Position numbers and translations under genes: made by a program. The notes under the pieces were generated by a model, which saw only the letters and a program-made list of their open reading frames with translations, did not search any database and had not been told where the DNA came from. From a bacterium (GTDB taxonomy: Bacteria > Pseudomonadota > Gammaproteobacteria > Nevskiales > OUC007), in assembly GCA_018222345.1 (NCBI GenBank), contig JAAFAL010000020.1, positions 1 through 32,402 of the forward strand: 32,402 nucleotides of DNA, given 5' to 3'. Of the stretch, positions 1 through 22,703 are shown piece after piece. Numbering within the stretch: the first letter of the stretch is position 1; every line of letters begins with the position of its first letter.

Positions 1-2278
<2,278 letters not shown>

Positions 2279-2303
2279 TGCAGGCGCTCCACTTCAACAA
2301 CAC

Positions 2304-2527
2304 TGTCATTGCGAGCACCGAAGGTGCGCGGCAACCCTCGCCGGCAAGCGGCTCGGGGCTTTGCTGCGCAAAGCCTTACCAGTCCCTCTTCCAAATCCCC
2401 GCTCGCTACGCTCGCCGCCCCTTTACTAAAGGGGCTGTCATTGCGAGGCCCGAAGGGCCGCGGCAATCTCGTTGGGTAGCGCCTTCGGTGGGGAGATTGC
2501 CGCGCACCTTTAGTGCTCGCAATGACA
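2304..2527. repeat. REP-like palindromic repeat cluster (three GTCATTGCGAG units)
   Basis: TGTCATTGCGAG occurs at 2304-2315 and 2436-2447, and its inverse CTCGCAATGACA at 2516-2527. Each unit runs on to GCGGCAA(T/C) and encloses a small hairpin whose arms differ but still pair or nearly pair: GCACCGAAGGTGC, GGCCCGAAGGGCC and GCACTAAAGGTGC. The last two units face each other and form an inverted repeat over 2436-2527. A separate hairpin, GCCCCTTT-ACT-AAAGGGGC, lies at 2417-2435. No convincing gene is seen in this 271-bp gap between hisZ and the yjeT-like gene. It resembles a widespread intergenic repeat class; a role in mRNA stability or termination is only inferred. Confidence 0.8.
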
Positions 2528-2549
2528 GGAGTTGTGATGCCGAAAACCG

Positions 2550-2738
2550 TCACTTCGCCACCTGCAACACCAGCAACCCAGCACCGATGCTCACCAAACC
2601 AATGATGCGCAAACTGCGGTCATCTTGCGTGGCCATGCGCTGCATCACCTCGCGCCAGCGTTGCGGCATCAGGAATGGCATCAAGCCTTCGATCACCAGC
2701 ACCAAGGCGAGCGCACGCAACAAGTCGGCCCAAGCCAT
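2550..2738 (-). CDS. YjeT-like small inner-membrane protein (DUF2065)
   Basis: This is a 62-residue protein with two hydrophobic segments, roughly residues 5-24 (LLRALALVLVIEGLMPFLMP) and 43-60 (LRIIGLVSIGAGLLVLQV), joined by a basic loop containing QRWREVMQRM. The pattern and length match the DUF2065/YjeT family, which sits between hflC and purA in many gammaproteobacteria. It starts 15 nt after the hflC stop, so it is very likely in the same transcript. The biochemical role is not established. Because of its neighbours, a link to HflKC at the inner membrane is a reasonable guess. Confidence 0.88.
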   Translation of the reverse strand: MAWADLLRALALVLVIEGLMPFLMPQRWREVMQRMATQDDRSLRIIGLVSIGAGLLVLQVAK

Positions 2739-2753
2739 AACGAATCGCCTGTC

Positions 2754-3623
2754 TTACTTGCCGGTTGAATTGCCGAAATATTGGAAGACTTCGTTGTCCG
2801 GCTCGATGACCAGCAAGTCGTTGCCGTCACCAAAGCTCGAGGTATAGACCTCCAGGCTGCGGTAGAAGCGATAGAACTCGCGGTCTTGCTCGTAGGCTTG
2901 TGCGTAAACCTCGGTGGCCACGGCGTCGCCTCTGCCTCGAATCTCCTCGGCTTCGCGGTAGGCATTGGCCAGGATGACTTCGCGCTCACGCTCGGAGGTT
3001 GCCTTGATCTTTTCGGCTTCCTCGGCGCCACGGGCGCGGAAGTCGGCAGCCACACGCTGACGCTCGGAGCGCATGCGGTCGTACACCGAGTTGCTCACCG
3101 AGGTCGGCAGGTCGATACGCTTGACACGCACATCGATCAGGTCGATACCGAACTCCGACACCTTTTCGGCAGCATTGGTCTCCAACGACTGCATGATTTC
3201 GTTGCGCTCGCCCGACACCGCCTGTTGAATGGTGCGGTTACCGAACTCGTCACGCAGGCCCTTGTTGATGATCGACGACAGCCGCGCCAGTGCGGTGGCT
3301 TCCTGGCCGCCGGTGGCGCGGTAGAACTTGCGCACATCGACAATCCGCCACTTGACGAAGAAATCCACCTGCACCTGTTTCTTTTCCAGGGTCAGGAACT
3401 CTTCCGCCGAGGTGTCCAGGGTCAGGATGCGCGAGTCGAACAGGCGCACATTCTGGGCAAAAGGCGCCTTGAAGTGGATGCCTGGCTCGATGTCGGCCTT
3501 CGTGACCTCACCTAACTGGAACAGCAGCGCTGTCTGGCGTTGATCGACGATGTAGAACGCGTCAAACGCCGCGGCCACGCCAACAAACGCCAGCGCGATG
3601 AGAATAATTTGCTTGCCGGACAT
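2754..3623 (-). CDS. hflC: HflC, SPFH/band-7 subunit of the FtsH-modulating HflKC complex
   Basis: HflC and HflK assemble into a large periplasm-facing cage around the FtsH protease in the inner membrane and modulate its activity. The 289-residue protein has an N-terminal membrane anchor (about residues 5-24, IILIALAFVGVAAAF). The SPFH domain follows (FYIVDQRQTALLFQLGEV, GIHFKAPF, QVDFFVKWRI), then a long charged coiled-coil stretch (about 190-250, RQRVAADFRARGAEEAEKI). The C-terminal part (DREFYRFYRSLEVY) is typical. Its ATG overlaps the hflK stop by one nucleotide (TAATG), so translation is probably coupled for equal amounts of both subunits. Confidence 0.95.
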   Translation of the reverse strand: MSGKQIILIALAFVGVAAAFDAFYIVDQRQTALLFQLGEVTKADIEPGIHFKAPFAQNVRLFDSRILTLDTSAEEFLTLEKKQVQVDFFVKWRIVDVRKFYRATGGQEATALARLSSIINKGLRDEFGNRTIQQAVSGERNEIMQSLETNAAEKVSEFGIDLIDVRVKRIDLPTSVSNSVYDRMRSERQRVAADFRARGAEEAEKIKATSEREREVILANAYREAEEIRGRGDAVATEVYAQAYEQDREFYRFYRSLEVYTSSFGDGNDLLVIEPDNEVFQYFGNSTGK

Positions 3624-4783
3624 TAGCGGCGCCCCCGCTGACGTGCGCCGTCAGCATTGGATGGATAACTGCTGCCTTGTTGGCTCGCCGAGCCTGACGT
3701 AGCACTGCGACTGTTGCTGTTACGCGGTTGCACGCGCTCACCCAGCTTGTCCAGCGGCAGATACAGCAGCGGGCTGGACTCATCGACGTCAACCAGCACT
3801 TTGCCCGTACTGCTCAGCACCGTGTTCATGGCATCCAGATACAGACGGTCACGGGTGACCTCAGGCGCACGCTGATACTCGGTCAGTACCGCAGAGAAAC
3901 GGGCGGCCTCACCCTTGGCACGCTCGGTGACACGGGTCTCGTAAGCACTGGCCTGCTCCAGTTGGCGCGCGGCCTCGCCGCGGGCGCGCGGCAGAATCTC
4001 ATTGGCGAAGGCTTCGGCTTCGTTGATCAAACGCTGCTGATCTTCGCGGGCCTTAATGGCGTCGGCAAACGCAGCCTGCACGGGCCCAGGCGGGTCGGCT
4101 TGCTCGAGGTTGACCTCGGTTACAAACAGGCCGGACTCGTAGCGGTCCAGCGTGTCCTGCAGCAATTCCTTGGCGCGGGTGGCCACTGCTTCACGGCCGG
4201 CGGTGATGACGAAGTCCATGTCGGACTTGCCCACCACTTCGCGGATGGCGCTCTTGGTGGCTTCGCGCAGGGTCGAATCGGGATCACGCAGCGAGAACAA
4301 ATAGCGCTGTGCATCACTGACGCGGTACTGCACCTGCAAGGTGATGGCGACAATATTCTCGTCCTGCGTGAGCATGGACGAGCTTTCCTGCGTCTGCGAC
4401 ACGCGGGTGACATTGACCCGTTCCACCGACTGGATCGGCGATGGCAAATGCCAGCGCAAGCCCGGCGGCGTGGTCGTGTGGTACTTGCCAAACTGCAGCA
4501 CCACACCGTTTTCCTGTTCGTCAACGATGTAAATGCCACTGGCCAGCCATAGCAGGCCGGCGACGATGGCCAATAGCGTGACAAAGCCCTTGGACGGCAA
4601 ACCGCTGCCGCCACCGCCTTTGTTACCGCCGCCACCGCTCTTGCCACCGCCAAAGCGGTCGCGCAGTTTCTTCAGCAACTCATCCAGGTCGGGTGGTTGC
4701 TGCTGGCCCTGTTTGCGGCCCCAGGGGTCTTTAGGGCCCTGGTTGCCAGGACCGCCGTTGTTTCCAGGCTCATTCCAAGCCAT
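3623..4783 (-). CDS. hflK: HflK, SPFH/band-7 subunit of the FtsH-modulating HflKC complex
   Basis: This is the partner of HflC in the membrane complex that controls FtsH proteolysis. The start at 4783 is preferred over an upstream in-frame ATG at 4846. It is preceded by AGGAG five nucleotides upstream, and the protein then begins MAWNEPGNNGGPGNQGPKDP, the Gly/Pro/Asn-rich cytoplasmic head usual for HflK. Of 386 residues, about 1-65 are low-complexity glycine-rich (GGGKSGGGGNKGGGGSG). A membrane segment follows (FVTLLAIVAGLLWLASGIYIV), then the SPFH domain (VVLQFGKYHTTTPPGLRWHLP) and a coiled-coil region (about 230-300). The tail is rich in Ser, Arg and Gln. It lies 99 nt downstream of hflX and overlaps hflC. 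Confidence 0.95.
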   Translation of the reverse strand: MAWNEPGNNGGPGNQGPKDPWGRKQGQQQPPDLDELLKKLRDRFGGGKSGGGGNKGGGGSGLPSKGFVTLLAIVAGLLWLASGIYIVDEQENGVVLQFGKYHTTTPPGLRWHLPSPIQSVERVNVTRVSQTQESSSMLTQDENIVAITLQVQYRVSDAQRYLFSLRDPDSTLREATKSAIREVVGKSDMDFVITAGREAVATRAKELLQDTLDRYESGLFVTEVNLEQADPPGPVQAAFADAIKAREDQQRLINEAEAFANEILPRARGEAARQLEQASAYETRVTERAKGEAARFSAVLTEYQRAPEVTRDRLYLDAMNTVLSSTGKVLVDVDESSPLLYLPLDKLGERVQPRNSNSRSATSGSASQQGSSYPSNADGARQRGRR

Positions 4784-4882
4784 GTGTGCTCCTGCATTCG
4801 GATTCGTCACGCAGGGGGGCTGCGTGCGGGTCGAGGATTTTATCATCGCGACGAGAGATTTATTGGGCTGGTCGCGCAGTTT

Positions 4883-6199
4883 TCAATGTGGCGGCGTTGC
4901 GGCGCGCACCAGAGCCACCGGATCAAGCCCCGCCTGCTGGCACAAACGGTCGAACTGGCCGCGCGGAATACGTAGGTCGATGATCTGCGTGCCGTCATCG
5001 TCGGCGCGCTCGGCGTGAACCGCGCCGCGTTCGAACAGGGCGGCGCGCAAGCGGCCCGCCTCGGGCGGCAAGTGCACGGTCAGTTCGGCAAGGTCAGGTT
5101 GCAGGCGGCGGGCGATAGCCTCGCGCAACAAATCGAGCCCGGCGCCCTGCTGCGCCGACAAATACACCCGCGCCGGCAATCCGTTGGAGCCATCGACTAC
5201 GCGCGGTGTGGTGTCCTGTGCGCCGTCATCGTCCAGTAGGTCGATCTTGTTGAACACCTCAAGCTGCGGGACTGCGTCGGCACCAAGCTCCAACAACACC
5301 TCGCGCACGTCGCGCATACGATCGCCACGCTCTTCGTCGGCGGCATCGACCACGTGCAGCAACAGATTCGCCTGCTCAGTTTCTTCCAGAGTGGCGCGGA
5401 AAGCTGCGATCAGTTCGTGCGGCAGGTCACGAATGAAACCCACCGTATCGGCCAGCACGACGTTATCGCCGGTGGGTAATTTGAGCTGGCGCAGCGTTGG
5501 GTCGAGCGTCGCAAACAGTTGATCCGCCGCATATACACCGCCCTCAGTGAGCGCATTGAACAGCGTCGATTTACCGGCGTTGGTGTAACCCACCAGCGAC
5601 ACCGTAGGCGCGTCCGCCCGGCGCCGCGCCTGGCGGCCCAGTTCGCGCCGGGCACGCACCGTGTTCAGGCGTTTCTTCAGGCTCTTGATACGGATGGCTA
5701 GCAGGCGGCGATCCGTTTCAAGCTGGGTTTCGCCCGGGCCGCGCAGGCCGATGCCGCCCTTCTGGCGCTCCAAGTGGCTCCAGCCGCGCACCAGGCGCGT
5801 CGATAAATGTTCAAGCTGGGCTAGTTCGACTTGCAGCTGGCCTTCGTGCGAGCGCGCGCGCTCGGCGAAAATGTCGAGGATCAAACCAGCGCGGTCGAGC
5901 ACGCGGGCTTGCAGCAGCCGCTCGAGGTTGCGCTCCTGGCTGGGCGACAGGTCGTGGTTGACGATGACCACCTCAGCGCAATGCTCTACCACCAACTCGC
6001 GCACGGATTCGGCCTTGCCACTGCCGAGGTAGTAGCGCGGGTCGGGCGTATCGCGTTTACCACCAACCACGCACAGCACATCGGCACCCGCCGAGCGCGC
6101 AAGCTCGACGAATTCGGTGTGGGCTTCGGTATAGTCCCAGCGATTGAAGTCCAAATGGACCAAAACCGCCTTTTGACCGGATTTTGGGCGTTCAAACAT
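4883..6199 (-). CDS. hflX: Ribosome-associated GTPase HflX
   Basis: HflX is an Obg/HflX-class GTPase that binds the 50S subunit and can split stalled or stress-inactivated ribosomes. The 438-residue protein shows the N-terminal HflX domain (LGSGKAESVRELV about 58-70; DLSPSQERNLERLLQARVLDR about 83-103). The family signature GGIGLRGPGETQLETDRR spans about 148-165. G-motifs follow: GYTNAGKS (204-211), DTVGF (251-255) and NKID. The start codon lies 4 nt after the 3' arm of a 20-bp inverted repeat, and no strong Shine-Dalgarno sequence is visible. The only weak candidate, GAG, lies inside the stem. The hfq-hflX-hflK-hflC order is conserved in gammaproteobacteria. Confidence 0.95.
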   Translation of the reverse strand: MFERPKSGQKAVLVHLDFNRWDYTEAHTEFVELARSAGADVLCVVGGKRDTPDPRYYLGSGKAESVRELVVEHCAEVVIVNHDLSPSQERNLERLLQARVLDRAGLILDIFAERARSHEGQLQVELAQLEHLSTRLVRGWSHLERQKGGIGLRGPGETQLETDRRLLAIRIKSLKKRLNTVRARRELGRQARRRADAPTVSLVGYTNAGKSTLFNALTEGGVYAADQLFATLDPTLRQLKLPTGDNVVLADTVGFIRDLPHELIAAFRATLEETEQANLLLHVVDAADEERGDRMRDVREVLLELGADAVPQLEVFNKIDLLDDDGAQDTTPRVVDGSNGLPARVYLSAQQGAGLDLLREAIARRLQPDLAELTVHLPPEAGRLRAALFERGAVHAERADDDGTQIIDLRIPRGQFDRLCQQAGLDPVALVRAATPPH

Positions 6200-6203
6200 A
6201 GTG

Positions 6204-6290
6204 AACTCGACTATTGCACGTGGCCGCTATTGGCGACAGCCCTAGGTGCTGCACAAACAAGCAGCGCGCGCCACGTGCAACAGTCGAGTT
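6204..6290 (-). promoter_or_regulatory. Long hairpin in the hfq-hflX spacer, sequestering the hflX start region
   Basis: Arms of 20 nt at 6204-6223 and 6271-6290 are inverted repeats with a single difference. In RNA of the minus (gene) strand that difference becomes a G-U pair, giving an unbroken 20-bp stem; in plus-strand RNA it is an A-C mismatch. The loop is 47 nt and contains a smaller hairpin, GCTGC-TTGTTTGT-GCAGC. The stem begins 34 nt after the hfq stop and ends 4 nt before the hflX ATG. It has no U-run in the gene direction, so it is not an intrinsic terminator for hfq. A role in hflX translation control or in double-strand RNA processing is inferred. Confidence 0.6.
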
Positions 6291-6323
6291 TTTCTCCTGG
6301 CGCGCTCGGCGCCGACCGGTCCG

Positions 6324-6569
6324 CTAGTCGTCGGACTCGGCCTGGTCACTATCATCAACAACACGCACCGCACGTGACGGCACGATTGTGGAGATCGCGT
6401 GTTTGTAAACCATCTGGCTGACTTGGTTTTTCAGCAGCACGACGAACTGGTCGAAGGACTCTATCTGGCCCTGCAGCTTGATGCCATTAACCAGGTAGAT
6501 GGCGACGGGGATGCGTTCTTTGCGCAGGGCGTTGAGGAACGGCTCCTGCAAAATCTGACCCTTGGACAT
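6324..6569 (-). CDS. hfq: RNA chaperone Hfq
   Basis: Hfq is a hexameric Sm-like protein that pairs small RNAs with mRNAs. The start at 6569 ([10 protein letters not shown]) is chosen over an ATG 21 nt upstream because it matches the family and has GGAGT at a good distance. The 81 residues include Sm1 and Sm2 ([20 protein letters not shown] about 25-44; [11 protein letters not shown] 55-65). The key Gln8, Tyr25, Lys56 and His57 are present. The rim patch reads R16-K17-E18-R19, with Lys where E. coli has Arg17. The C-terminal tail is short and acidic ([10 protein letters not shown]), like the autoregulatory acidic tip of E. coli Hfq but on a shorter tail. A 145-nt gap separates it from miaA. 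Confidence 0.97.
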
Positions 6570-6714
6570 TTTTGTTGTACTCCAATGCAAACACGGCTGC
6601 CCGTTAGGCTCGATAACGGCAGCAGTGCGGTCTTGAATTTAATAATCTGCAGTCGTCAGGCTACGGATGGCCCCAGCGGCTGCGGCAATGCGCGAAGCGT
6701 AGCATAGCCGCACA

Positions 6715-7650
6715 TCAGAATTGCGCACTGCACCATTTGATCGCCGCTTGCAGCGCGGCGCCTTGGCCAGAAGTGACATCGTGCCAATCAACATCGGCCT
6801 CTTTGCGCAACCACGTGCGCTGGCGCTTGGCAAATTGTCGCGTTGCGATGACGCCCCGCTCGGCCGCTTCGGCGAGGCTGTAGTGGCCGTCGAGATGGGC
6901 CCACAACTGGCGGTAACCGACAGCTCGCATCGACGGATGGTCGGCTGTCAACGCTGGCCGGGCTTTCAAGTGCGCGACCTCGTCAACAAACCCGGCCGCG
7001 AGCATGGCCTCAAAGCGTTGCGCAATACGCGTGTTGAGCGTCTCCACGGGCAAGTTCAGCCCCAGCTTTTGCACCGCCCAAGGCACGCTATTGCCCTGTT
7101 GACGCGCGAGGTGCGCGCTATGCGGCTCGCCACTGACCAGCGCGACCTCCAACGCCCGTTGGATGCGCTGGCCATCGTTGGGGTGCAGGCGCGCGGCGGT
7201 CTCGGGATCGCGCTCGGCGAGCCGCGCATGGAGTGCCGGCCAGCCCAATTGCTGCGCTTGCGCCGATAGCTCGTCGCGGAGTGCGGCATTGGCTTGCGGC
7301 AGTTCGCTCAGGCCCTCGAGCAAGGCCCGGAAGTACAGGTTGGTGCCGCCGACCAGCACCGGCAGGCGGTTGCTGGCATGAGCAACATCAATCTCGCGCC
7401 GCGCATCGTCGGCAAATTGCGCGGCGGAATAGGGCTGCTCCGGGTCACGGATGTCGATGAGCGCATGCGGCGCTGCCGCCAGTTCTTCAGCGCTGGGTTT
7501 GGCAGTGCCGATATCCATGCCGCGATAAACCAGCGCCGAATCGACGCTGATCAAATGGCAATCGAACTGCGCCGCTAGCGCCATCGCAACCGCGGTCTTG
7601 CCGGTCGCCGTCGTGCCCATAATGCACAGCAGTGGCGGTTTGCTAGGCAT
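6715..7650 (-). CDS. miaA: tRNA dimethylallyltransferase MiaA
   Basis: MiaA adds a dimethylallyl group to N6 of A37 in tRNAs that read codons starting with U. The 311-residue protein starts at 7650, its ATG overlapping the mutL stop by one nucleotide (TAATG); a longer upstream reading would extend into mutL. Visible motifs are the P-loop GTTATGKT (12-19), DSALVYRGMDIGTAKPS with the substrate-binding Asp, DPEQPYSAAQFADDAR, PVLVGGTNLYFRALLEG, and the late TRQFAKRQRTWLR motif for tRNA contact. The usual DSxQVYR reads DSALVYR here, a small deviation in an otherwise standard enzyme. It is followed by hfq as in E. coli. Confidence 0.95.
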   Translation of the reverse strand: MPSKPPLLCIMGTTATGKTAVAMALAAQFDCHLISVDSALVYRGMDIGTAKPSAEELAAAPHALIDIRDPEQPYSAAQFADDARREIDVAHASNRLPVLVGGTNLYFRALLEGLSELPQANAALRDELSAQAQQLGWPALHARLAERDPETAARLHPNDGQRIQRALEVALVSGEPHSAHLARQQGNSVPWAVQKLGLNLPVETLNTRIAQRFEAMLAAGFVDEVAHLKARPALTADHPSMRAVGYRQLWAHLDGHYSLAEAAERGVIATRQFAKRQRTWLRKEADVDWHDVTSGQGAALQAAIKWCSAQF

Positions 7651-9336
7651 TACTGCCCGCGCATGAACAGCCGATCCAGCTCCTTGATGCTGAGTTGCAC
7701 CCAGGTGGGCCGGCCATGGTTGCACTGGCTGCTGCGCTCTGTGCGTTCCATGTCGCGCAACAACGCATTCATTTCGTCCAGCGTCAGCCGCCGATTAGCG
7801 CGCACCGAAGCGCGGCAGGCCATGTCGCCCAGGCGCTCGTCATCCAGTGCTTCGATGTCCTGCGCGCTGCCGGCCTCGGCCATGCGCGCCAACAAGCCGC
7901 GCAGCAATTCTTCGATATCGACGTCCGCCAGGCGCGTCGGCACGCAGCGCACCGTGAGTGTGTGCGGCCCGCTGCGGGTCACCTCGAAGCCATACTGCGT
8001 CAGGGTGTCAGCCTGCGCCTCGGCCAAATCCGCTTGCGGCTCCGACACCGCAACATCCACCGGCACCAGCAAGGGCTGCGCGGCGATGCGGCCGCGGGCC
8101 CGGTCGGCCTTGAGCTGTTCATAAACAATGCGCTCGTGTGCGGCGTGCATATCCACCAGCACCAGGCCGGCAGCATTTTCAGCCAGGATATAAATACCGT
8201 GTAGCTGCGCCTTGGCGTAGCCCATGGGCGGAATCTCGGAATCTGCCACTGAGTTGACGGCTGACATTGCTGCCGCAGCTTGCGGCGCCGGCTCGGCGAG
8301 GCGCGCATAGTGCCCCGCCGCCTCGCGCACTTGCAGCCCCAAACTGGGCTGGCTGTAGCTGTGCGAGGCTGTGTGAACGGGGCGCAACTGCGCTGCGCCT
8401 TGGGCATTGCCGGCTGCGGTCACCCGGTGTTGCGCCGCGTCCTGCCCGGCCAATGCTTCGCGAATCGTGTGCGACAAGAATCCATGCACTTTGCCCGAAT
8501 CGCGGAACCGCACCTCGTGTTTGGTGGGGTGTGCATTCACATCAACAGTGGCGGGGTCCATCGTCAGATACAGCACATAGGCCGGCTGGCGCGCGTGGTG
8601 CAGCACGTCGCCGTAGCCCTGCTTGACCGCGTGGGTCACGACTCGGTCGCGAATCGGCCGGCCGTTGACAAACATGAACTGCATATCGGCCGTGCCACGC
8701 GTGAATGCCGGCAGGCCCAACCAGCCGCACAGGTGCAGGCCGGCGCGGCTGAGTTCCACCCAGCGGCAATGCTCGGCAAAGCCGTCGCCCAGCACCGCCG
8801 CCACCCGTGCCAAACGTGCTTGCTCGTTGTCGGCGCGGGCAAAGTCGCGCACCACCTTACCGTCGTGGCTGAGCCGGAAGGCCACGTCAAAGCGCCCCAG
8901 CGCCGCGCGGCGCAACATTCGGTCGATGTGCTTGAACTCGGTATTAGCCGTTTTCAGGAACTTGCGCCGCGCCGGCACGTTGAAGAACAGGTCACGCAAT
9001 TCAACAGTCGTGCCTTGCGGATGCGCTGCGGGCTTGGGCACCAAGTCGGCGCTGTAACGCCCAGCCACTTGCCAGCCGCTGTCGCCGTCGCTACTAGATG
9101 TGACAGACATTGCAGAAACCGAGGCCATTGAAGCCATGGCCGTTGTCACGCACGCGCAAGCGGCGCACGCCGCCCGCCTCGGCTTCCACTTCAATACGCG
9201 TGGCGCCAGCATCCAGGCTGTTTTCAAGCAGTTCCTTGAGCGCAGATGCCGGCCGCTCGATGACCTCGCCAGCGGCGATTTGATCGACCAACTGCGGGGC
9301 CAAAGTCTGGATTGGGCGGGGTGCTGGCTGAGTCAC
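7650..9336 (-). pseudogene. mutL: DNA mismatch repair protein MutL, disrupted by an internal out-of-frame deletion
   Basis: MutL couples MutS mismatch recognition to strand incision. The N-terminal part ([47 protein letters not shown]) is read in one frame from a probable GTG at 9336. After the DNGHG motif that frame runs into a stop at 9094-9096. The rest of MutL continues in another frame from [16 protein letters not shown] near 9130 to the 7650 stop: PAAHPQGTTVELRDLFFNVP, FVNGRPIRDR, DVNAHPTKHEVRF, DMHAAHERIVYE, NHGRPT. The family segment of about 36 residues between DNGxG and ALASxxSVS, including the ATP-lid motif GFRGEAL, is absent. The junction is at 9133-9140 (GCCATGGC). Either a real deletion or an assembly error explains this. 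The downstream frame is otherwise undamaged. Confidence 0.85.
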
Positions 9337-9496
9337 GTGCGGGATGCTAGCACTTGGTGACTCATCACTTGTCGGCCATCCATGGCCTCCAAGCCCCGGT
9401 GTGCCCTCCAGCCGGGCTTCCTGCCCGGCGTTCACTGCTGGCGCAGTTCACCCACCCTACGGGCACCTTTCCCCGCAAGCGCGAGAAGGGAAATTC

Positions 9497-9546
9497 ACCT
9501 CTCCCTTGGGGAGAGGTCGCCAACGCGTAGCGATGGCGGGTGAGGG
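9497..9546. repeat. REP-like hairpin repeat, CTCTCCC family (copy A)
   Basis: ACCTCTCCC (9497-9505) and GGGAGAGGT (9509-9517) form a 9-bp stem with a TTG loop. They are followed by CGCCAACGCGTAGCGATGG and CGGGTGAGGG. The same parts, in inverse order, occur at 30829-30878. Similar sequence (CCCCGCAAGCGCGAGAAGGG) lies just upstream from about 9471. It occupies the 252-bp gap between mutL and the amidase gene, in which I see no gene. This composition matches a common class of extragenic palindromes in GC-rich proteobacteria. Confidence 0.7.
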
Positions 9547-9588
9547 AATATTCGGCGCAACTCTGGCACCGACCTCAGTGCTGCGTGC

Positions 9589-10929
9589 TCAGGTCGGAGG
9601 AATCTGAATGACGTCACCAACCCGAATGCTGTCGGACGCCAAGCCATTGAAGTCACGAATCGTGCGCATCGACGTGCGATAGCGCTGCGCAATTTGCGAC
9701 AGCGTGTCGCCACGCGACACCGTGTGTTGACGCGGCGCGGCGCCGGCCACTGTCGTCCGTGGCCGGTAGTCCTCGAAGTAGCCTTCGATACCGCGCATCA
9801 ATTGCTGCGCCATGCGCTGCTGATAGCCGGGGTCTTTCAGGCGGCGTTCTTCGTCGCGGTTGGAGATGAACGCCGTTTCGACCAGTACCGACGGAATATC
9901 CGGTGCCTTGAGCACAGCAAAACCGGCCTGTTGCACGGCCTTTTTGTGCAGTTTGTTGATGCTGCCCATTTGCGACAGCATGCGCGCGCCAACGTCAAAG
10001 CTGGCTTCCAGCGCCGCGGTTTGCGAGATGTCGATCAGCACCGAGGCAAGGATGTCGTCCTTGTCGTCCAGGCGCACACCGCCGATCAGGTCGGACTCGT
10101 TTTCGCGCTTGGCCAAAGTGCGGGCATGCTCGCTGGAGGCGCCGCGCTCGCTGAGCACGTAGATCGACGAACCATGTACACGACGATCAGTAAAGGCATC
10201 GGCATGGATGGAGATGAACAAGTCAGCTTGGGCTTCGCGCGCTTTGGCAATGCGGGTGCGCAGGCCCACGTAGTAGTCGCCATCGCGAACCAACACGGCC
10301 TTCATGCCGGGCTTGTTGTCCACCAGTTTTGCCAATCGACGGGCGATTTGCAGCGCCACGTGTTTTTCCAGCACGCCGCTTGGGCCGCGTGCGCCGGAAT
10401 CTTCGCCGCCGTGGCCAGCATCAATGGCGATGACGATGGGCTTGTAACCCAACGCAACGGGCTCGGACGGGGTGCTGAGTGTGGCCGCAGCCGTCGTCGT
10501 CCTGGCTGCTGCCAACGGCTCCACGTCAACCACCAAGCGGTGGCCATACTTGCCCTGTGGTTTCAAGATGAAAGATTTGGCCCGCGACTCGCCGGCCAGA
10601 TCGAGCACCAGCCGTAAATCATGGTCGCCACGGTTGCCGCTGCGCACACGCTTGACCGCACCGCGGCCGTCCTGGCTGGCAGGCACGGATTGCTTGCGCT
10701 GAGTTTGCTCCACATCGATCACGACGCGTGCCGGGTTTTCCAGCATGAACAGGTTGTGTTTGGCGGCGGAATCCAGGTCAAACACCACGCGCGTGGCGTC
10801 GGGGCCGGCCCACACGCGGACGTCTTCCAGCGTCGCGGCCTGCACGGCCAGCGGCAACGCAAAGCTTGCCGCTGCGAGCATTGCAGCCCACTTGCGGAGC
10901 GGGTTTGTCGTGTTGCTCGTCTGCGTCAC
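9589..10929 (-). CDS. N-acetylmuramoyl-L-alanine amidase (AmiB/AmiC type) with AMIN and LysM domains
   Basis: This is a periplasmic enzyme that cuts the stem peptide from N-acetylmuramic acid during daughter-cell separation. I favour the GTG at 10929, which has AGGGGA about 7 nt upstream; in-frame ATGs at 10953 and 10989 lack such a site. The 446-residue product has a signal peptide (about 1-31, cut near LAVQA). An AMIN domain follows (about 32-130, VRVWAGPDATRVVFDLDS). The zinc Amidase_3 domain (AIDAGHGGEDSGARGP, the Glu of LEKHVAL, LFISIHADAF, VLVETAFISN) comes next, then a C-terminal LysM (HTVSRGDTLSQIAQRY). The LysM and the place before mutL resemble E. coli AmiB. A 100-nt AT-rich stretch upstream may hold a promoter. 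Confidence 0.93.
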   Translation of the reverse strand: MTQTSNTTNPLRKWAAMLAAASFALPLAVQAATLEDVRVWAGPDATRVVFDLDSAAKHNLFMLENPARVVIDVEQTQRKQSVPASQDGRGAVKRVRSGNRGDHDLRLVLDLAGESRAKSFILKPQGKYGHRLVVDVEPLAAARTTTAAATLSTPSEPVALGYKPIVIAIDAGHGGEDSGARGPSGVLEKHVALQIARRLAKLVDNKPGMKAVLVRDGDYYVGLRTRIAKAREAQADLFISIHADAFTDRRVHGSSIYVLSERGASSEHARTLAKRENESDLIGGVRLDDKDDILASVLIDISQTAALEASFDVGARMLSQMGSINKLHKKAVQQAGFAVLKAPDIPSVLVETAFISNRDEERRLKDPGYQQRMAQQLMRGIEGYFEDYRPRTTVAGAAPRQHTVSRGDTLSQIAQRYRTSMRTIRDFNGLASDSIRVGDVIQIPPT

Positions 10930-11028
10930 TGTGATTCCCCTGCGCAGTTCCATAGCTGGAAGATACTGCACAGGGATCAGTAAAGGCAAGGGTTTTTTCT
11001 ATGTTTTTATGACTTTACTATCTCTTTG

Positions 11029-11514
11029 TCAGGCAACACTTTCCAAATAGCTGCTAAGGCATTGAATAATTCTTTCGCCGCGAGGCGTGAGCCCGTTGAT
11101 GACAACCGAGCGTGCCTCGTCTGCGTAATCCAACACAACGCTGGCATCGACGGTGGGCAAAAACTCGCCAGCACGGGCCGGCCATTCCACCAACCAAACA
11201 CCACTACTCTCCTCTACACCCAGTTCGACAAAGGCCTCTGGCGCCTCCAACCGGTATAGGTCCATATGCAGCACCGGCGGCGCGGTGTCGTACGGTTCCA
11301 CCAGCGTGTAAGTCGGGCTTTTGACCGTGCCAGCGTGCCCCAGCGCCTGAACGAAACCACGTGCCAGCGTCGTTTTGCCTGCGCCAAGTGGGCCTTGCAG
11401 GGTGATTACGACACGCATCTGAGCAGTGGCTGATGCCTGCTCTACGCTGGCTGCGAGCGCTGCGCCAAGCGCCAATGTCGCGGGCTCATCGGCTAGCTTG
11501 CAGGTTTGTTTCAT
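11029..11514 (-). CDS. tsaE: tRNA threonylcarbamoyladenosine biosynthesis ATPase TsaE
   Basis: TsaE is the small P-loop ATPase that works with TsaB and TsaD to transfer the threonylcarbamoyl group to A37 of ANN-decoding tRNAs. The 161-residue protein has the P-loop GPLGAGKT at 41-48. It is followed by the family motifs VKSPTYTLVEPYD, LHMDLYRL, and GVWLVEWPARAGEFLP. Its ATG overlaps the nnr stop by 4 nt (ATGA). Length and motifs are standard for the family, and the nnr-tsaE-amidase order is the same as in E. coli (yjeF-yjeE-amiB). Confidence 0.95.
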   Translation of the reverse strand: MKQTCKLADEPATLALGAALAASVEQASATAQMRVVITLQGPLGAGKTTLARGFVQALGHAGTVKSPTYTLVEPYDTAPPVLHMDLYRLEAPEAFVELGVEESSGVWLVEWPARAGEFLPTVDASVVLDYADEARSVVINGLTPRGERIIQCLSSYLESVA

Positions 11515-12998
11515 GAATTGAGCACGGCGCGCAACTGCGCAATCACATCGCTGGGCAACAGGCCACGCTGGCCCGTTTCCGCGGCGCGGTCGCCGGCCAC
11601 AGCATGTGCCAACACAGCCAGCCGCGCAGCCTCGGGCAAGTCAAACCCCTGCGCAATGAGCGCGGCAATAACACCTGTGAGCACATCGCCCATGCCGCCC
11701 ACGGCCATGCCGGGGTTGCCCGCCGCGCACATGGCCGGTGGCGCATCTGCGGTGGCAATCAAACTCCCCTGGCCTTTGAGCACCGCCACGGCGCCCGTCA
11801 GCGCGGCCAACTCGCGCGCAGCAGCGAAGCGATCTTGCTGGATTTTGTCCGTGTCACACGCCAGCAAGCGCGCGGCTTCGCCGGGGTGCGGCGTGATGAC
11901 GGCATTGTTCAGCGGCCACGAGCGATTTTGCGCCAACAAATTCAGCGCATCGGCGTCAAACACTGTCGGCAGACCAACCGCCAGCACGCGATCCAGTAAA
12001 GCCTTAGCCCAAGCGTCCTGCCCCAGCCCGGGCCCGATGGCGACAACAGTCGCTGCGCTTAGAGCCTGATCCACGTCGCCGATATTTTCTACCGCGCAAA
12101 CCATGGCCTCGGCCTGCGCCGAGACAATGGCCGAAACATGATCCGGCCGCGTGGCCACAGTGACCAGCCCAGCACCGGCACGCAGCGCCGCCTGCGTGGC
12201 CAATACCGCTGCGCCCGGCATGCCGTAATTGCCGCCAACAATCAGCACGTGGCCATGCTGGCCTTTGTGCGCAGCGGCCGACCGCGCCGGCAGCGCATTC
12301 AACATATCGTTTGACATGCAGTAGGCAATCGGCTGCTGGGTGGCGCGCGCAGGCTCGGGCAAGTCCAGCGGCGCGTGAACAACGTCGCCAGCCAGGGTTG
12401 CGCCCTGGCCCATGAACAATCCTGGCGTCTGACCAATAAAGCTGGCCGTCACATCGGCCCGCACGGCAGCGCCAAGCACTGCGCCCGTATCGCCATGCAG
12501 GCCGCTGGGGATATCCAGCGCCAAGACGGGTGCTTTGCTGTTGTTGAGTTGCGCGATCGCCTCAGCCTGGGCGCTACGCACCTGGCCATCCAGGCCACTG
12601 CCCAGCATCGCATCGATCACCACATCGGCATTACGTAGCCACGACGGATCGAACGGATGAATGGGTTCGCCTGTGGCTTGCCAGGCCGCCAAGGCCTGCG
12701 CCGCCTCGCCGCCCTTGTCGGCAATACGCTGCGCATCGCCAAGCAAGCAGACCACGGGGTCCAGCCCGGCGGCCAAGGCCTGCCGCGCCAGATCAATGCC
12801 ATCGCCGCCGTTATTGCCCGTACCAGCCACCACAACAATGCGCCGCGCTCGGGGCCAGCGCTGTTGCAACAGGTGCAGGGCCGCCGCGGCCGCCTGCTGC
12901 ATGAGGCCATAGCCATCGACTCCGTAATCGTCGATGGCGGCGCGATCCAGCGCCCGGACTTGCTCGCTTCGATACAATGCTGTGCCTAGCCCGAACAT
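11511..12998 (-). CDS. nnr: Bifunctional NAD(P)HX epimerase / ADP-dependent NAD(P)HX dehydratase
   Basis: This fused repair enzyme restores hydrated NADH and NADPH. The epimerase half (about 1-215) shows DYGVDGYGLMQQAAAAAL, VVAGTGNNGGDGIDLAR and VIDAMLGSGLDG. The dehydratase half (about 230-495, ribokinase-like) shows GKGQHGHVLIVGG-type sequence (HKGQHGHVLIVGG), ATVVAIGPGLGQD, FDADALNLLA, VITPHPGEAARLL, AVLKGQGSLIA and GNPGMAVGGMGDVLTGVIAALIAQG. The 495 residues fit the fused family. It is the first gene of the minus-strand superoperon and diverges from queG. A possible promoter lies just upstream in an AT-rich patch. Confidence 0.95.
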   Translation of the reverse strand: MFGLGTALYRSEQVRALDRAAIDDYGVDGYGLMQQAAAAALHLLQQRWPRARRIVVVAGTGNNGGDGIDLARQALAAGLDPVVCLLGDAQRIADKGGEAAQALAAWQATGEPIHPFDPSWLRNADVVIDAMLGSGLDGQVRSAQAEAIAQLNNSKAPVLALDIPSGLHGDTGAVLGAAVRADVTASFIGQTPGLFMGQGATLAGDVVHAPLDLPEPARATQQPIAYCMSNDMLNALPARSAAAHKGQHGHVLIVGGNYGMPGAAVLATQAALRAGAGLVTVATRPDHVSAIVSAQAEAMVCAVENIGDVDQALSAATVVAIGPGLGQDAWAKALLDRVLAVGLPTVFDADALNLLAQNRSWPLNNAVITPHPGEAARLLACDTDKIQQDRFAAARELAALTGAVAVLKGQGSLIATADAPPAMCAAGNPGMAVGGMGDVLTGVIAALIAQGFDLPEAARLAVLAHAVAGDRAAETGQRGLLPSDVIAQLRAVLNS

Positions 12999-13020
12999 TT
13001 CACGCGACCGCTTGATGAAA

Positions 13021-13049
13021 AATATAACTGCATGAAATATATTGAATAA
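13021..13049 (-). promoter_or_regulatory. Possible promoter for the nnr superoperon
   Basis: Reading the minus strand, TTATTC (13049-13044), a 17-nt spacer, then TATATT (13026-13021) lie in an AT-rich patch that stands out from the GC-rich surroundings, about 22 nt upstream of the nnr start codon. The -10 box matches five of six consensus positions; the -35 is weak. This is a prediction only. Confidence 0.3.
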
Positions 13050-13093
13050 TTCAGGGGCTTATGAAAACTTGTCCCGGCTTGAGCATCGCTTGT

Positions 13094-13210
13094 GTAGAAG
13101 CTGGCTTGTCTCGGCCGCCCTAGACTTGCTCTTCACTCCAAACGTAGCTATTGCTACGTTTCTCGCTCCAGAGCGGCGCCCAGAACAACCGATCCGGCGC
13201 CAGCTTCTAC
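13094..13210. repeat. Dispersed repeat with 12-bp terminal inverted repeats (copy 1)
   Basis: GTAGAAGCTGGC (13094-13105) and GCCAGCTTCTAC (13199-13210) are perfect inverted ends of a 117-bp segment. Inside is the hairpin AAACGTAGC-TATT-GCTACGTTT (13140-13161). Positions 13123-13185 are identical over 63 nt, on the opposite strand, to 30626-30688, and weaker similarity extends on both sides. The segment lies between the divergent nnr and queG genes, where no other gene is visible. It looks like a small non-coding mobile or structured repeat; which family is unknown to me. Confidence 0.75.
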
Positions 13211-13259
13211 GCATCACGTGAATTGTTCAGGCTAGCATCGCCACATTATGGAGGGTCTC

Positions 13260-14375
13260 GTGGCACATGCCGACCCCGCCGCGGCAAATTCCGACGCCGG
13301 CGCATTGCAGCGCATTGCCGACGCGCTGCCCGAATGGGCGGCAGCGCAAGGTTTCAATGGCCTGGGCATTACCCGGATTGCGCTGGATGCCGATGCAGCC
13401 CACCTGCGTAAGTGGTTAGACCGCGCACACCACGGCAGCATGGACTGGATGGCGCGCCATGCCGCGCTGCGTAGCGACCCGGCCGCGCTGCACCCCGGCA
13501 CGATCCGTGTGGTCTCCGTGCGCATGCCCTACTTGCCGGAATCAATCCAACAGGCCGAAGCAGCGTTGGGTGACAGCAGCCGGGCCTACATCAGCCGCTA
13601 CGCCCTGGGGCGCGACTATCACAAGCTGATGCGCAAACGCCTGAAAAAACTTGGCGCGCAGATCGAACAAGCCATCGCCGAAGCCTTGCCCAGCCTACGC
13701 GCCGACCAGCGCCCGTTTGTCGATAGCGGACCGGTGCTGGAAAAAGCCCTGGCACGCGATGCGCGGCTGGGCTGGATCGGCAAACACACGCTGTTGCTGC
13801 AGCGCGACCAGGGCTCGTTCTTTTTCCTTGGCGAATTGCTGACCAACCTACCGCTACCGGAAACCCAGGCCGCGCCAGTCCGCGATCTGTGTGGCAGTTG
13901 CAGCGCCTGCATCGACATTTGCCCGACCGGCGCCATCATCGGCCCGCAGCAATTGGATGCGCGGCGGTGTATTTCCTACCTGACCATCGAGCACGACGGG
14001 CCGATCCCGCTTGAGCTGCGCGCCGACATTGGCAACCGCATTTTCGGCTGCGACGACTGCCAACTGGTGTGCCCGTGGAACCGCCACGCCACGCCCAGCC
14101 GCGAGGCCGACTTTGCCCCGCGCCATGGCCTGGACACCGCGACGCTGCTGGAGTTGTGGGCCTGGGACGAAGCCACCTGGCTGCGCAACACCGAAGGCAT
14201 GGCGCTGCGCCGCGCCGGTTGGCAGGGCTGGCGGCGGAACTTGGCTGTGGCGCTGGGCAATGCGCCGCCTTTACCAGAAGCAGTACAAGCCTTGGAAGCC
14301 GCCAAGCCCGATGCAAGCGATCTAGTTACCGAGCACATCGAATGGGCGATTACCCGACTGACTCAGGCATGCTGA
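13260..14375 (+). CDS. queG: Epoxyqueuosine reductase QueG
   Basis: QueG is a cobalamin-dependent iron-sulfur enzyme that reduces epoxyqueuosine to queuosine in tRNA, the last step of the pathway. I place the start at GTG 13260, preceded by GGAGGG; the ATG at 13248 would swallow that site, but the choice is not certain. The 371-residue product carries PFVDSGPVLEK, whose Asp (about 155) corresponds to the proposed catalytic acid. LGWIGKHTLLLQ follows. Two [4Fe-4S] motifs are present: CGSCSACIDICP (211-222) and CDDCQLVCPW (264-273). HEAT-like repeats make up the C-terminus. It diverges from nnr as in E. coli (yjeS/yjeF), and its 3' end overlaps the convergent next gene by 13 nt. Confidence 0.95.
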   Translation: MAHADPAAANSDAGALQRIADALPEWAAAQGFNGLGITRIALDADAAHLRKWLDRAHHGSMDWMARHAALRSDPAALHPGTIRVVSVRMPYLPESIQQAEAALGDSSRAYISRYALGRDYHKLMRKRLKKLGAQIEQAIAEALPSLRADQRPFVDSGPVLEKALARDARLGWIGKHTLLLQRDQGSFFFLGELLTNLPLPETQAAPVRDLCGSCSACIDICPTGAIIGPQQLDARRCISYLTIEHDGPIPLELRADIGNRIFGCDDCQLVCPWNRHATPSREADFAPRHGLDTATLLELWAWDEATWLRNTEGMALRRAGWQGWRRNLAVALGNAPPLPEAVQALEAAKPDASDLVTEHIEWAITRLTQAC

Positions 14376-14884
14376 TGTGGCTTGCGGCCTAAGCGCCGCG
14401 CCGCGTGCGCACAGCCGCGGCAGCCGCCGGACATCAGCGCCCAAACAAGCAGCCCGCCCAGCACCGCAAACAGTAGGTGGTCGGGCGAAAATCCAAAACC
14501 TGGTTTGAAGCTGTCCCAAGTGGCACGCAGGTCGGCTTTGCGCGCATCAGTGAGCATGTGCTGCGCCGCCGATACTGGCCCAGCGCGCATCTCGCTAACG
14601 GCGCGCGTGTACCAGGCCACTGCATTGGCGATTTGCGTCACCGCATCTGCCGTTTCACGCACGCTGGCATCGTCATTGCGGCGGTACGCGGCCACCAGCG
14701 AAGCCAAACTGCCATTGTGGTGGCGGTCGGCGATGCGCTGAAACGGGGCCAAGTCGGCCTGGGCCTGTACTTGGCGGCCCTCGATGCGTTGCTGGTATTG
14801 CTGCGCAAAACTGGGAACGGCTGCAGCGGCCAACACGCAGGCAATCAGCAGCAAGCGGTCGGCAAACCCGGCCAGCCAGCGCAT
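14363..14884 (-). CDS. DUF2937-like membrane protein of unknown function
   Basis: This is a 173-residue protein. An N-terminal hydrophobic segment (about 7-27, FADRLLLIACVLAAAAVPSF) is followed by FAQQYQQRIEGRQVQAQADLAPFQ and a helical charged middle. A second hydrophobic segment (about 133-151, HLLFAVLGGLLVWALMSGG) comes next, then a basic, His-ended tail. The pattern fits the DUF2937 family, for which I know no biochemical function. The ATG at 14884 sits directly against the end of a MITE. Without the element, the start codon would overlap the pgi stop as TAATG, so this gene was probably translationally coupled to pgi. No Shine-Dalgarno sequence is visible in the element end that now precedes it, so expression may be reduced. 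Confidence 0.75.
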   Translation of the reverse strand: MRWLAGFADRLLLIACVLAAAAVPSFAQQYQQRIEGRQVQAQADLAPFQRIADRHHNGSLASLVAAYRRNDDASVRETADAVTQIANAVAWYTRAVSEMRAGPVSAAQHMLTDARKADLRATWDSFKPGFGFSPDHLLFAVLGGLLVWALMSGGCRGCAHAARRLGRKPHQHA

Positions 14885-14886
14885 TA

Positions 14887-15151
14887 GGGCCTGTTCACAC
14901 TATTTGAATGCGCCTCGCCGAAGGCCGATTTTTTCTCAGACAAGGCGCGCTGAGTGCCGTTTAGCAAGGCTAAACCAGCGATGCGCAACGCTGCATGAGG
15001 AAAAATTGGTCCGGCCCGAAGGGTTGGCCCTGAAATCAGGCCATCCGGCGTTGCTCGTCGTTCATTTGGAATGACCAAACATCTCTCCTCGCGCCTTGCC
15101 TGGCCTGATTTCAGGGTCAACGCGGCGCATTCAAATAGTGTGAACAGGCCC
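14887..15151. mobile_element. 265-bp MITE with 27-bp perfect terminal inverted repeats and TA flanks (copy 1)
   Basis: The ends 14887-14913 and 15125-15151 are perfect 27-bp inverted repeats beginning GGGCCTGTTCACAC. TA is present on both sides (14885-14886 and 15152-15153), consistent with a TA target duplication as made by IS630/Tc1-mariner-type or some IS5-type transposases. Internal structure includes 16-bp perfect inverted arms (15028-15043 and 15101-15116) and a short hairpin, TTCATTTGGAATGA. There is no transposase. A second copy of exactly the same length lies at 24392-24656. The element separates pgi from the DUF2937-like gene. Confidence 0.88.
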
Positions 15152-16788
15152 TAGCTAGCCATCTTGGCGATCAATGCCGTGGTTGAAGCGTCGTGCGCTT
15201 GCGCCTCGCCGCCGCTCAATTCGGCATCAATCACGGTGGCCAATTGCTTGCCCAACTCGACGCCCCATTGGTCGAAGGCGTTGATGTCCCACAGCACGCT
15301 TTGCACGAACACCTTGTGCTCATACAGCGCGATCAGGCTGCCCAATGTGTTGGCATCCACGGTTGGCAACACAATGGTTGTGCTGGGGCGGTTGCCGGTA
15401 AAGACGCGATGCGGGATGGCGGCCTCCAGCGCGTCGCCGGCCAAGCCTTTCGCGGTCAGTTCTTCACGCACCTGCTCCGCCGTTTTGCCACACATCAGCG
15501 CCTCGCTTTGCGCCAGGCAATTGGCCACCAGCATGCGGTGCTGATGATCGACATCGTGGCCGAGCTTTTTCGGCAGGATGAAATCCACCGGCAGCGCTTG
15601 CGGGCCCTGGTGCAGCATTTGGAAGAAGGCATGCTGGCCGTTGGTGCCGATGTCACCCCAAAGGCTGACAATGGTTTGCCGCGGCACGGGCGCGCCACCG
15701 CGGGTAACGCCCTTGCCCGTGGATTCCATCTCAAGCTGTTGCAGGTAGGCCGGCAGCCGCGCAAGCGCCTGCGCATACGGCACAATGACTTGGCTGGGCA
15801 GGCCGAGGGCATTGGTATTCCAGATGCCGATCAGGCCCAGCCAGACCGGCAGGTTTTCACGCAGCGGCGCAGTTTGAAAGTGCTCATCCATCGCATGCGC
15901 GCCAGCGAGTAAATCGCGAAAGCTATCCATGCCCACAGCCAGTGCAATGGACAAACCCACCGCCGACCACAGCGAATAGCGCCCTCCGACCCAATCCCAG
16001 AAACCGAACATATTGTCGGTGTCGATACCGAAGTCGGCCACAGCGGCGTGGTTGGTCGAAACTGCTACAAAGTGTTTGGCGACGTCGGCGTCATCACCCA
16101 ATTTCCCGAGCAACCACGCTTTCGCGGTCGCGGCATTTGCCAGCGTTTCGGCGGTGCCAAAACTTTTGCTTGTGACAATAAACAGCGTCGTCGCGGCATC
16201 CAGGCCGGCGCACACGCGGGTAATTTCGGTGGCATCGACGTTGCTGACGAAGTGCACCTGCAGCGGCTGCTCGCCAGCCACCAGCGCCTCGCAAACCATG
16301 CGCGGGCCCAGGTCGGAGCCGCCTATGCCGATGTTCACGACATCGGTGATGCGCTGGCCCGTGTGGCCCAGCCAATCGCCATCGCGCACGCGCGTGGTGA
16401 ACGCTGCCACGCGGTCGAGCACCTCATGAACATCGCCCATGACCGGCTCGCCCAATGCGGCAAAGTCGGCCTCACGCGGCGCGCGCAATGCGGGGTGCAG
16501 CACGGCGCGGCCTTCAGTGTGGTTGATTGGCTCGCCGGCGAACAGGCGGGCAATCCAACTGGGCAGATCCGCGGCGTCGGCCAGCGCAAACAGGGCGTCT
16601 AGGCTGGCAGCATCGACACGCTGTTTGGAAAAATCCGCATACAGGCCACAGGCTTCGACGCCCATGGCGCCGACACGGCCGGGTTCAGCCGCAAACAACT
16701 CGTTGAGGGTGGTACCGCCGAGCGCGTGTGCGGCGGCATCAATTTGTGCCCAGGCCACCTCGCGGCGGGGCGTGGTGGACTGCGTCAT
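15151..16788 (-). CDS. pgi: Glucose-6-phosphate isomerase
   Basis: The enzyme interconverts glucose 6-phosphate and fructose 6-phosphate in glycolysis and gluconeogenesis. The 545-residue length is normal. Hallmarks are NIGIGGSDLGPRM, FVSNVDATEI, TSKSFGTAETLANA (family norm TSKTFTTxET), the signature DWVGGRYSLWSAVGLSIAL, GTNGQHAFFQMLHQG with its catalytic His, and the C-terminal HKVFVQSVLWDINAFDQWGV. The stop codon is TAG, made of the TA insertion site plus the first G of the adjoining MITE; without the element it would be TAA. It lies 15 nt downstream of panD and is likely co-transcribed with it. Confidence 0.96.
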   Translation of the reverse strand: MTQSTTPRREVAWAQIDAAAHALGGTTLNELFAAEPGRVGAMGVEACGLYADFSKQRVDAASLDALFALADAADLPSWIARLFAGEPINHTEGRAVLHPALRAPREADFAALGEPVMGDVHEVLDRVAAFTTRVRDGDWLGHTGQRITDVVNIGIGGSDLGPRMVCEALVAGEQPLQVHFVSNVDATEITRVCAGLDAATTLFIVTSKSFGTAETLANAATAKAWLLGKLGDDADVAKHFVAVSTNHAAVADFGIDTDNMFGFWDWVGGRYSLWSAVGLSIALAVGMDSFRDLLAGAHAMDEHFQTAPLRENLPVWLGLIGIWNTNALGLPSQVIVPYAQALARLPAYLQQLEMESTGKGVTRGGAPVPRQTIVSLWGDIGTNGQHAFFQMLHQGPQALPVDFILPKKLGHDVDHQHRMLVANCLAQSEALMCGKTAEQVREELTAKGLAGDALEAAIPHRVFTGNRPSTTIVLPTVDANTLGSLIALYEHKVFVQSVLWDINAFDQWGVELGKQLATVIDAELSGGEAQAHDASTTALIAKMAS

Positions 16789-16803
16789 GGGCTGGGTACC
16801 GAG

Positions 16804-17184
16804 TTAAGCCGCTTGGACGGGGATGGTGTTGCGCGTGTGCGTGATGTTGTTGTGCTCGTCGCAGTACACCAGCTTGGGCTTGTGATTGCTGGCTTGCGCC
16901 TCGTCCATGCCGCAATAGGCGGCGATGATCACGCGGTCGCCGGGGCTGGCGCGGTGGGCGGCTGCGCCGTTGACCGAAATAATCTTGGAACCCGCCTCGG
17001 CGCGGATCGCGTAAGTCTCGAACCGCTCACCATTGGTGACGTTGTAGATCTGGATTTGCTCGTACTCGTGAATACCCGAGGCACGCAACAAATCGTCGTC
17101 GATGGCGCAGGAGCCTTCGTAGTCGAGTTCGGCGTGGGTGACACACGCGCGGTGCAATTTGGCTTTGAGCAGTGTGACGTTCAT
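16804..17184 (-). CDS. panD: Aspartate 1-decarboxylase (pyruvoyl enzyme precursor)
   Basis: The product makes beta-alanine from aspartate for pantothenate and coenzyme A synthesis. The 126-residue proenzyme contains the self-cleavage site Gly24-Ser25 within [11 protein letters not shown], so Ser25 becomes the pyruvoyl group. Other conserved parts are [29 protein letters not shown] and [12 protein letters not shown]. Its ATG has GAGG about 6 nt upstream. A 152-nt gap with a plausible promoter separates it from panC, so panD-pgi may be a separate transcription unit from panB-panC. Confidence 0.96.
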
Positions 17185-21686: not shown

Positions 21687-22703
21687 GTGACCGATTCCCC
21701 AGCCGCCAATTCGCCTGCGCATCATTTGCTGCCCGCATTGTTTGCGGCCTTGGCCGGCGCCATGGTGCTGGGTTTGTGCATCGGCCCGGTGCCCGCCACA
21801 TTAAATGACCTGCTGGCTGCCATCGGCATCACCGACGCGCCGGGGCGCGAATACGCGCGCACGGCCTTGTTGGAATTGCGCCTGCCCCGCGTGCTGCTGG
21901 CGGCCATGACCGGGGCCACGCTGGGCGTCTGCGGCGCCGCCATTCAAGGTTTGTTCCGCAATCCGCTGGCCGAGCCTGGCTTGATTGGGGTGTCGGCCGG
22001 TGCAGCGCTGGGCGCCGTGCTGGTATTGGTCATCATGCCGGCTGCAATGCCCGGCCTGCTGGTGCCTATTGCTGCATGTTTTGGCGCCGGCGCAACCGTC
22101 TGGCTGGTGCTGCGCATCGCCCGCCGCGCCGGCCGCACGCATGTGGCTACCGCCTTGCTGGCCGGCGTGGCCATCAACGCCATTGCCGGCGCCAGCATCG
22201 GCGTACTGACTTATATTGCCGACGATTCCGCGCTGCGCAGCCTCACATTCTGGTTGTTTGGCAGTCTGGGGCGCGCCGACTGGCCAATGCTCATGGTTGC
22301 CGCGCCAGCACTGCTGTTGCCGACGCTATTGCTGCCCCGCTACGCACCCGCACTCAATGCCTGGCTGTTGGGCGAGGATGCTGCGCGGCATTTGGGCGTG
22401 CCCACCGAGCGTGTCAAACGCCACGTGCCGCTGCTGGTCACGTTGGGTGTTGGCGCGGCCGTGGCGGCGACTGGCGTGATCGGTTTTGTTGGTCTGGTTG
22501 TGCCGCATTTGGTGCGCACGCTCACCGGCCCGGATCACCGCCATGTACTGCCGGCCAGTGCGGTTGCTGGCGCGGTGCTGCTAGTGCTGGCCGATGCCAC
22601 TGCGCGCGGCGTTGCCACCCCGGCCGAAGTGCCGGTGGGCTTGCTGACCGCCTTGTTGGGCGGGCCGTTCTTTTTGTGGTTGTTGCTGCGGCGGCGCGCG
22701 TGA
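21687..22703 (+). CDS. FecCD-family ABC permease, heme or cobalamin/siderophore type
   Basis: This is an inner-membrane permease of the BtuC/FecCD/HmuU family. The 338 residues form about ten hydrophobic segments. Family motifs are LRLPRVLLAAMTGATLGVCGAAIQGLFRNPLAEPGLIGVSAGAALGA (about 64-110), FWLFGSLGRADWPML, LGVPTERVKRHVPLLVTLGVGAAVAATGVIGFVGLVVPHLVRTLTGPDHRHVLPAS and the C-terminal GLLTALLGGPFFLWLLL. The start is GTG without an obvious Shine-Dalgarno sequence. It overlaps the ATPase gene (GTGA). The DHRHVLPAS wording recalls HmuU, but substrate cannot be fixed without the binding protein or receptor, which are not in the window. Confidence 0.88.
   Translation: MTDSPAANSPAHHLLPALFAALAGAMVLGLCIGPVPATLNDLLAAIGITDAPGREYARTALLELRLPRVLLAAMTGATLGVCGAAIQGLFRNPLAEPGLIGVSAGAALGAVLVLVIMPAAMPGLLVPIAACFGAGATVWLVLRIARRAGRTHVATALLAGVAINAIAGASIGVLTYIADDSALRSLTFWLFGSLGRADWPMLMVAAPALLLPTLLLPRYAPALNAWLLGEDAARHLGVPTERVKRHVPLLVTLGVGAAVAATGVIGFVGLVVPHLVRTLTGPDHRHVLPASAVAGAVLLVLADATARGVATPAEVPVGLLTALLGGPFFLWLLLRRRA

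Follow-up and report, generated by a model that had tools for sequence, protein, structure and literature searches.

The window, a stretch of 32,402 nucleotides analysed at its full length, carries on its minus strand a mutL gene that is split over two reading frames, the two parts being collinear as judged by open reading frame inspection and profile search. Profile and translation place the 5' part at 9094..9336, with a likely GTG start at 9336 in an open frame that extends up to 9435. This part follows the family reading from the N-terminus up to RVRDNGHG at the junction, after which 12 foreign, out-of-frame residues precede a stop at 9094. The 3' part (7650..9140, minus strand) lies in the other frame, begins with AMASMASVS at 9140 and runs for 496 codons without a stop. 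The TIGR00585 model matches the first frame at 9312-9127 with its positions 1-62 and the second frame at 9140-8421 with its positions 96-332, positions 408-554 also falling in the second frame, while positions 63-95 were absent from the window mutL in this search. The score of 270.7 bits for one stretch, or 368.2 bits with its neighbour in frame, exceeds the cut-off of 180 and places the gene in the MutL family; the window mutL has no single open frame in which the GHKL ATPase motifs, GFRGEA among them, are all complete. In agreement with this, the Pfam HATPase_c_3 match in the 5' part stops at profile position 46 of 137, and the 3' part contains the DNA_mis_repair and MutL_C domains, the C-terminal dimerisation domain (PF08676) scoring 148.7 bits. 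The two frames, their coordinates, the sequence GCCATGGC at 9133-9140 and the absence of the GFRGE segment had all been reported in a first-pass annotation of this DNA and are borne out by the sequence and its translation.

The C-terminal part of the window mutL carries DMHAAHERIVYE, which we take to fit the endonuclease motif DQHA(X)2E(X)4E with M in place of Q, so that repair would be of the MutL-nuclease type. The partner gene mutS is intact in the same genome (profile search, 1093.5 bits). A search for mutH gave no TIGR02248 match in this genome, the control matching E. coli, and a MutH-dependent MutHLS system was not found on that test.

Downstream of mutL on the same strand lie miaA (IPP transferase; 6715..7725, minus strand), whose open frame overlaps the end of mutL, and a gene at 6327..6569 (minus strand) that is 79% identical to an open frame of G003 and that we assume to be hfq from the usual gene order. 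Relatives match each of these genes in one frame. The break in mutL may exert polarity on both, and a search of 6100-9700 for promoter-like sites, as a possible relief of polarity on miaA, gave one site, on the plus strand, against 0.8 expected. The gene upstream of mutL is presumably amidase-like. From the start of the window to approximately 17 kb the gene order is common to three other genomes of the family (G001, G002 and G003), and within this region mutL is the only gene matched in two frames, apart from one open frame of L116 (position 16446, plus strand) that is antisense to matched genes and was left uncounted. The gene order round mutL (window 1-17000) also helps to place the contig. 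Elsewhere in the window, at 21687-23491, a FecCD-type permease and, next after it in an overlapping open frame, an ABC ATPase form an ordinary transporter pair.

The size of the loss was determined from the spacing of motifs in the family. With a pattern allowing 30 to 50 residues between DxGxG and GFRGEA, the D of the former and the first G of the latter were 35 residues apart in 110 of 113 MutL loci, a set in which at least two genes are present twice (L030/L115 and L035/L117); the other three loci gave no pattern match. Because this spacing is constant the loss amounts to 113 nt (37 codons and 2 nt), and comparison of the G001 orthologue with the window by tblastn likewise gave a net indel of exactly -113. 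The segment lost in this register comprises 35 family residues, beginning after DNGHG and ending with the E of GFRGEA. The first-pass annotation had correctly recognised an out-of-frame loss of 3n+2 nt that removes GFRGE, but its figure of 110 nt is short by one codon.

The junction itself (9133..9141, minus strand) reads GGCCATGGC on the coding strand; the upstream frame translates it as GHG, and the downstream frame as AM with A as the next residue. With its surroundings the coding strand reads GACAACGGCCATGGCTTCAATG, in which DNGHG belongs to the upstream frame and AMAS to the downstream frame. The fifth position of DxGxG is G in 106 of 107 relatives; the residue after the A of GFRGEA is Leu in 106 of 107 and Met in one, and the next is Ala in 72 and Pro in 34. 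These counts leave out six of the 113 loci in which no sufficiently long protein with the motifs could be read, and the A and E of GFRGEA were themselves required by the pattern. It had been proposed that slippage took place between two copies of GCCATGGC. The junction does look repeat-like, but the existence of two perfect copies in the ancestor is doubtful since the second would require Met where 106 of 107 relatives have Leu. An imperfect 9-nt repeat, GGCCATGGC and GGCCCTGGC, appears to fit better. If the ancestor had Leu (CTG makes up half of the Leu codons in seven genes of the window), slippage may have paired GGCCATGGC with GGCCCTGGC and placed the break within TGGC, on the right-hand side of the mismatch; the A of the first copy would then have survived, which would explain the junction Met. 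Across the junction the family agrees with both frames over 8-9 nt if Met is ancestral, or over approximately 4 perfect nt within the 9-nt imperfect repeat if Leu is.

A mutL gene with this geometry is found in Pseudomonas oryzihabitans NBRC 102199 (L110), in which GGCCATGGC and GGCCCTGGC lie 113 nt apart and agree at 8 of 9 bases, the best agreement among 110 loci. This is the arrangement proposed for the ancestor of the window; unlike the window, however, this distant relative has its motif in one frame. Agreement between the two repeat sites is lower in the three family members G001-G003, at 4 to 6 of 9 bases. The second copy in the ancestor is therefore best described as presumed, and slippage as probable but not proven. 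The L110 gene may itself hold a deletion hotspot, its ATPase motif being spanned by two direct 9-nt copies that differ at one base and lie 113 nt from each other. A further observation concerns 9105-9140 of the window, where three Met codons are clustered at family Leu/Ile positions at and just past the junction. The two beyond the junction replace an Ile and a Leu that are each found in 99 of 107 relatives, and both are left unexplained by the repeat model.

Outside the missing segment the gene is well preserved. At columns conserved to at least 98%, 108 of 109 residues are kept (23/23 in one part and 85/86 in the other), the single departure being the Met at the junction. Departures at lower thresholds number 3 of 134 at 95% and 10 of 160 at 90%, the latter including the two Met codons after the junction; when intact relatives were left out one at a time they showed from 0 (the median) to 5 departures. 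Retention of the near-invariant residues, together with the position of mutL as the sole true frame break, indicates that the loss either happened recently or does not exist in the organism, rather than being part of a general decay. The earlier view that the rest of the gene is undamaged, and the event hence recent or an assembly error, accords with these 496 open codons and 108 of 109 near-invariant residues.

That mutL is the sole true frame break comes from a survey in which open frames of G001 (1,575,001 bases in 79 stretches, of approximately 3.7 Mb) were set against 516,635 bases of the genome to which the window belongs (41 stretches of a draft of 3.0 Mb in 220 contigs, the window being included on purpose). 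The survey was restricted to open frames of 120 codons or more, required coverage of half the query or more and 35% identity, and detects frame-changing indels only, being blind to stops that arise by substitution. Two of 148 testable loci were flagged, and one of these (L167:5242-6436) proved to be a false positive without a frameshift, its upstream piece being an antisense read-through ahead of the start of an intact gene, which we take to resemble cysQ. In the reverse direction 0 of 141 were flagged. One true frame break among 148 loci indicates that indel errors are not common in the sampled part, and within these 148 loci and this class of change there was no sign of a long mutator life.

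Among relatives, G001, G002 and G003 each have the whole of mutL in one frame, as had been anticipated. The window MutL is 60% identical to that of L035, labelled 'uncultured Salinisphaerales bacterium isolate ERR599162_bin.92'. In a comparison set of 61 genomes, the 60 relatives of which all lie outside its own genus, 59 pass the TIGR00585 cut-off and only the genome under study has mutL in two frames inside a contig. In G007, G016 and G021 mutL lies at contig ends or over two contigs (G016 and G021 being judged from coordinates), and G060 gave no mutL match in the profile search of the 61 genomes. The shortened mutL of G007, at first sight a second such case in the order, was dismissed, since the match runs to the end of a 39,512-base contig and is cut by the assembly. 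In a wider sample of the class, 169 of 184 genomes match mutL at E 1e-18 or better and 15 do not; among the matches listed, the mutL at G133:C70:20292-21329 is interrupted by a TAA stop, and the mutL open frames of G135 and G140 are short, at 407 and 368 codons. Absent or damaged mutL in this sample suggests that loss of the gene is not unheard of in such sets.

We consider it likely that the window mutL has undergone a real and recent internal deletion of 113 nt that inactivates MutL, most probably by slipped mispairing between short repeats. Slipped mispairing between two short and probably imperfect direct repeats (GGCC-A/C-TGGC) would delete 113 nt and with them 35 residues, from behind the DxGxG motif to just before the A of GFRGEA, shifting the frame so that translation would halt 12 codons past the junction. 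A complete GHKL ATPase site would be lacking from the upstream fragment and from any restart product alike, and MutL-dependent mismatch repair should therefore be lost. The deletion would on this account be present in a living population, with loss of repair and a mutator phenotype as its expected consequences.

The main rival is a fault of assembly or library preparation, in which mutL is intact in the organism and a short overlap, used to join two contig ends or a chimaeric read, cost the assembly the 113 nt. This appears unlikely, if far from negligible. The genome is a draft of 220 contigs, and the lack of any other true frame break among the 148 loci is what would be expected of a cell with working mismatch repair. 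Against this, the two sides of the junction share only about 4 to 9 nt at most. Assemblers normally need k-mers or overlaps longer than approximately 9 nt, so that an overlap of this size is too short for the usual assembler and counts against an artefact. The gene order is moreover collinear with G001-G003 on both sides, which argues against a chimaeric join, and the missing segment is found on no other contig of its own genome. The last point rests on a 56-residue probe that matched 4 of 4 relatives as a positive control and nothing in the genome under study, by which the idea that the segment lies elsewhere in the genome was rejected; the only other TIGR00585 match in that genome, at 19.2 bits, is below the cut-off.

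It is much less probable that intact and deleted forms of mutL both occur in the population and that the assembler kept the deleted one. Such a mixture would suit the undamaged state of the rest of mutL and the often transient nature of mutator alleles, but the intact form is found on no contig and a consensus usually follows the majority. The split gene might also be functional, if an ATG in or close to the junction starts translation of the downstream frame and so yields a shortened MutL with its nuclease domain. ATG codons are indeed present at the junction, the downstream frame is open for 496 codons and the C-terminal domains are intact. However, the deletion has destroyed the GHKL site, mutL is in one frame throughout in the three family members, the open downstream frame is accounted for by recency and inspection of the sequence by eye revealed no obvious ribosome-binding site, and we regard this possibility as scarcely credible. 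Programmed frameshifting was also rejected, because the 35 missing residues cannot be supplied by a frameshift. A more far-reaching form of the real deletion, in which it has become fixed in the lineage as an irreversible MutL-null mutator with intact MutS that persists in nature, the C-terminal nuclease part possibly being made by restart at the junction ATG, seems improbable.

A real deletion of this kind would have precedents. In one report, 6bp-delta-mutL alleles of Salmonella and E. coli arise by slipped mispairing between repeats, with loss of mutL function and raised mutability (PMC2955026). The route proposed for the window is similar, but whereas the 6bp-delta-mutL change as described there involves one 6-bp tandem unit and is reversible (PMC2955026), that in the window comprises 113 nt between separated copies and shifts the frame, and its reversion by slippage should be impossible. 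Natural inactivation of mutL by short indels (e.g. an 11-nt deletion) has likewise been described for P. aeruginosa DK2 hypermutators, in which transitions and homopolymer indels are in excess (PMC3764201). That mutator spectrum was demonstrated with resequenced clones (PMC3764201), in contrast to the single draft genome on which the window case stands. Literature under the name Salinisphaerales yielded nothing on this gene among the matches listed.

Mutators are well known to lose mutL function by way of short repeats, and the present case therefore changes no general idea. If the deletion is real, it would represent a natural mismatch-repair-null allele in this lineage and would warn against treating this mutL as functional in annotation, and the bacterium should mutate faster than normal through a known kind of event.
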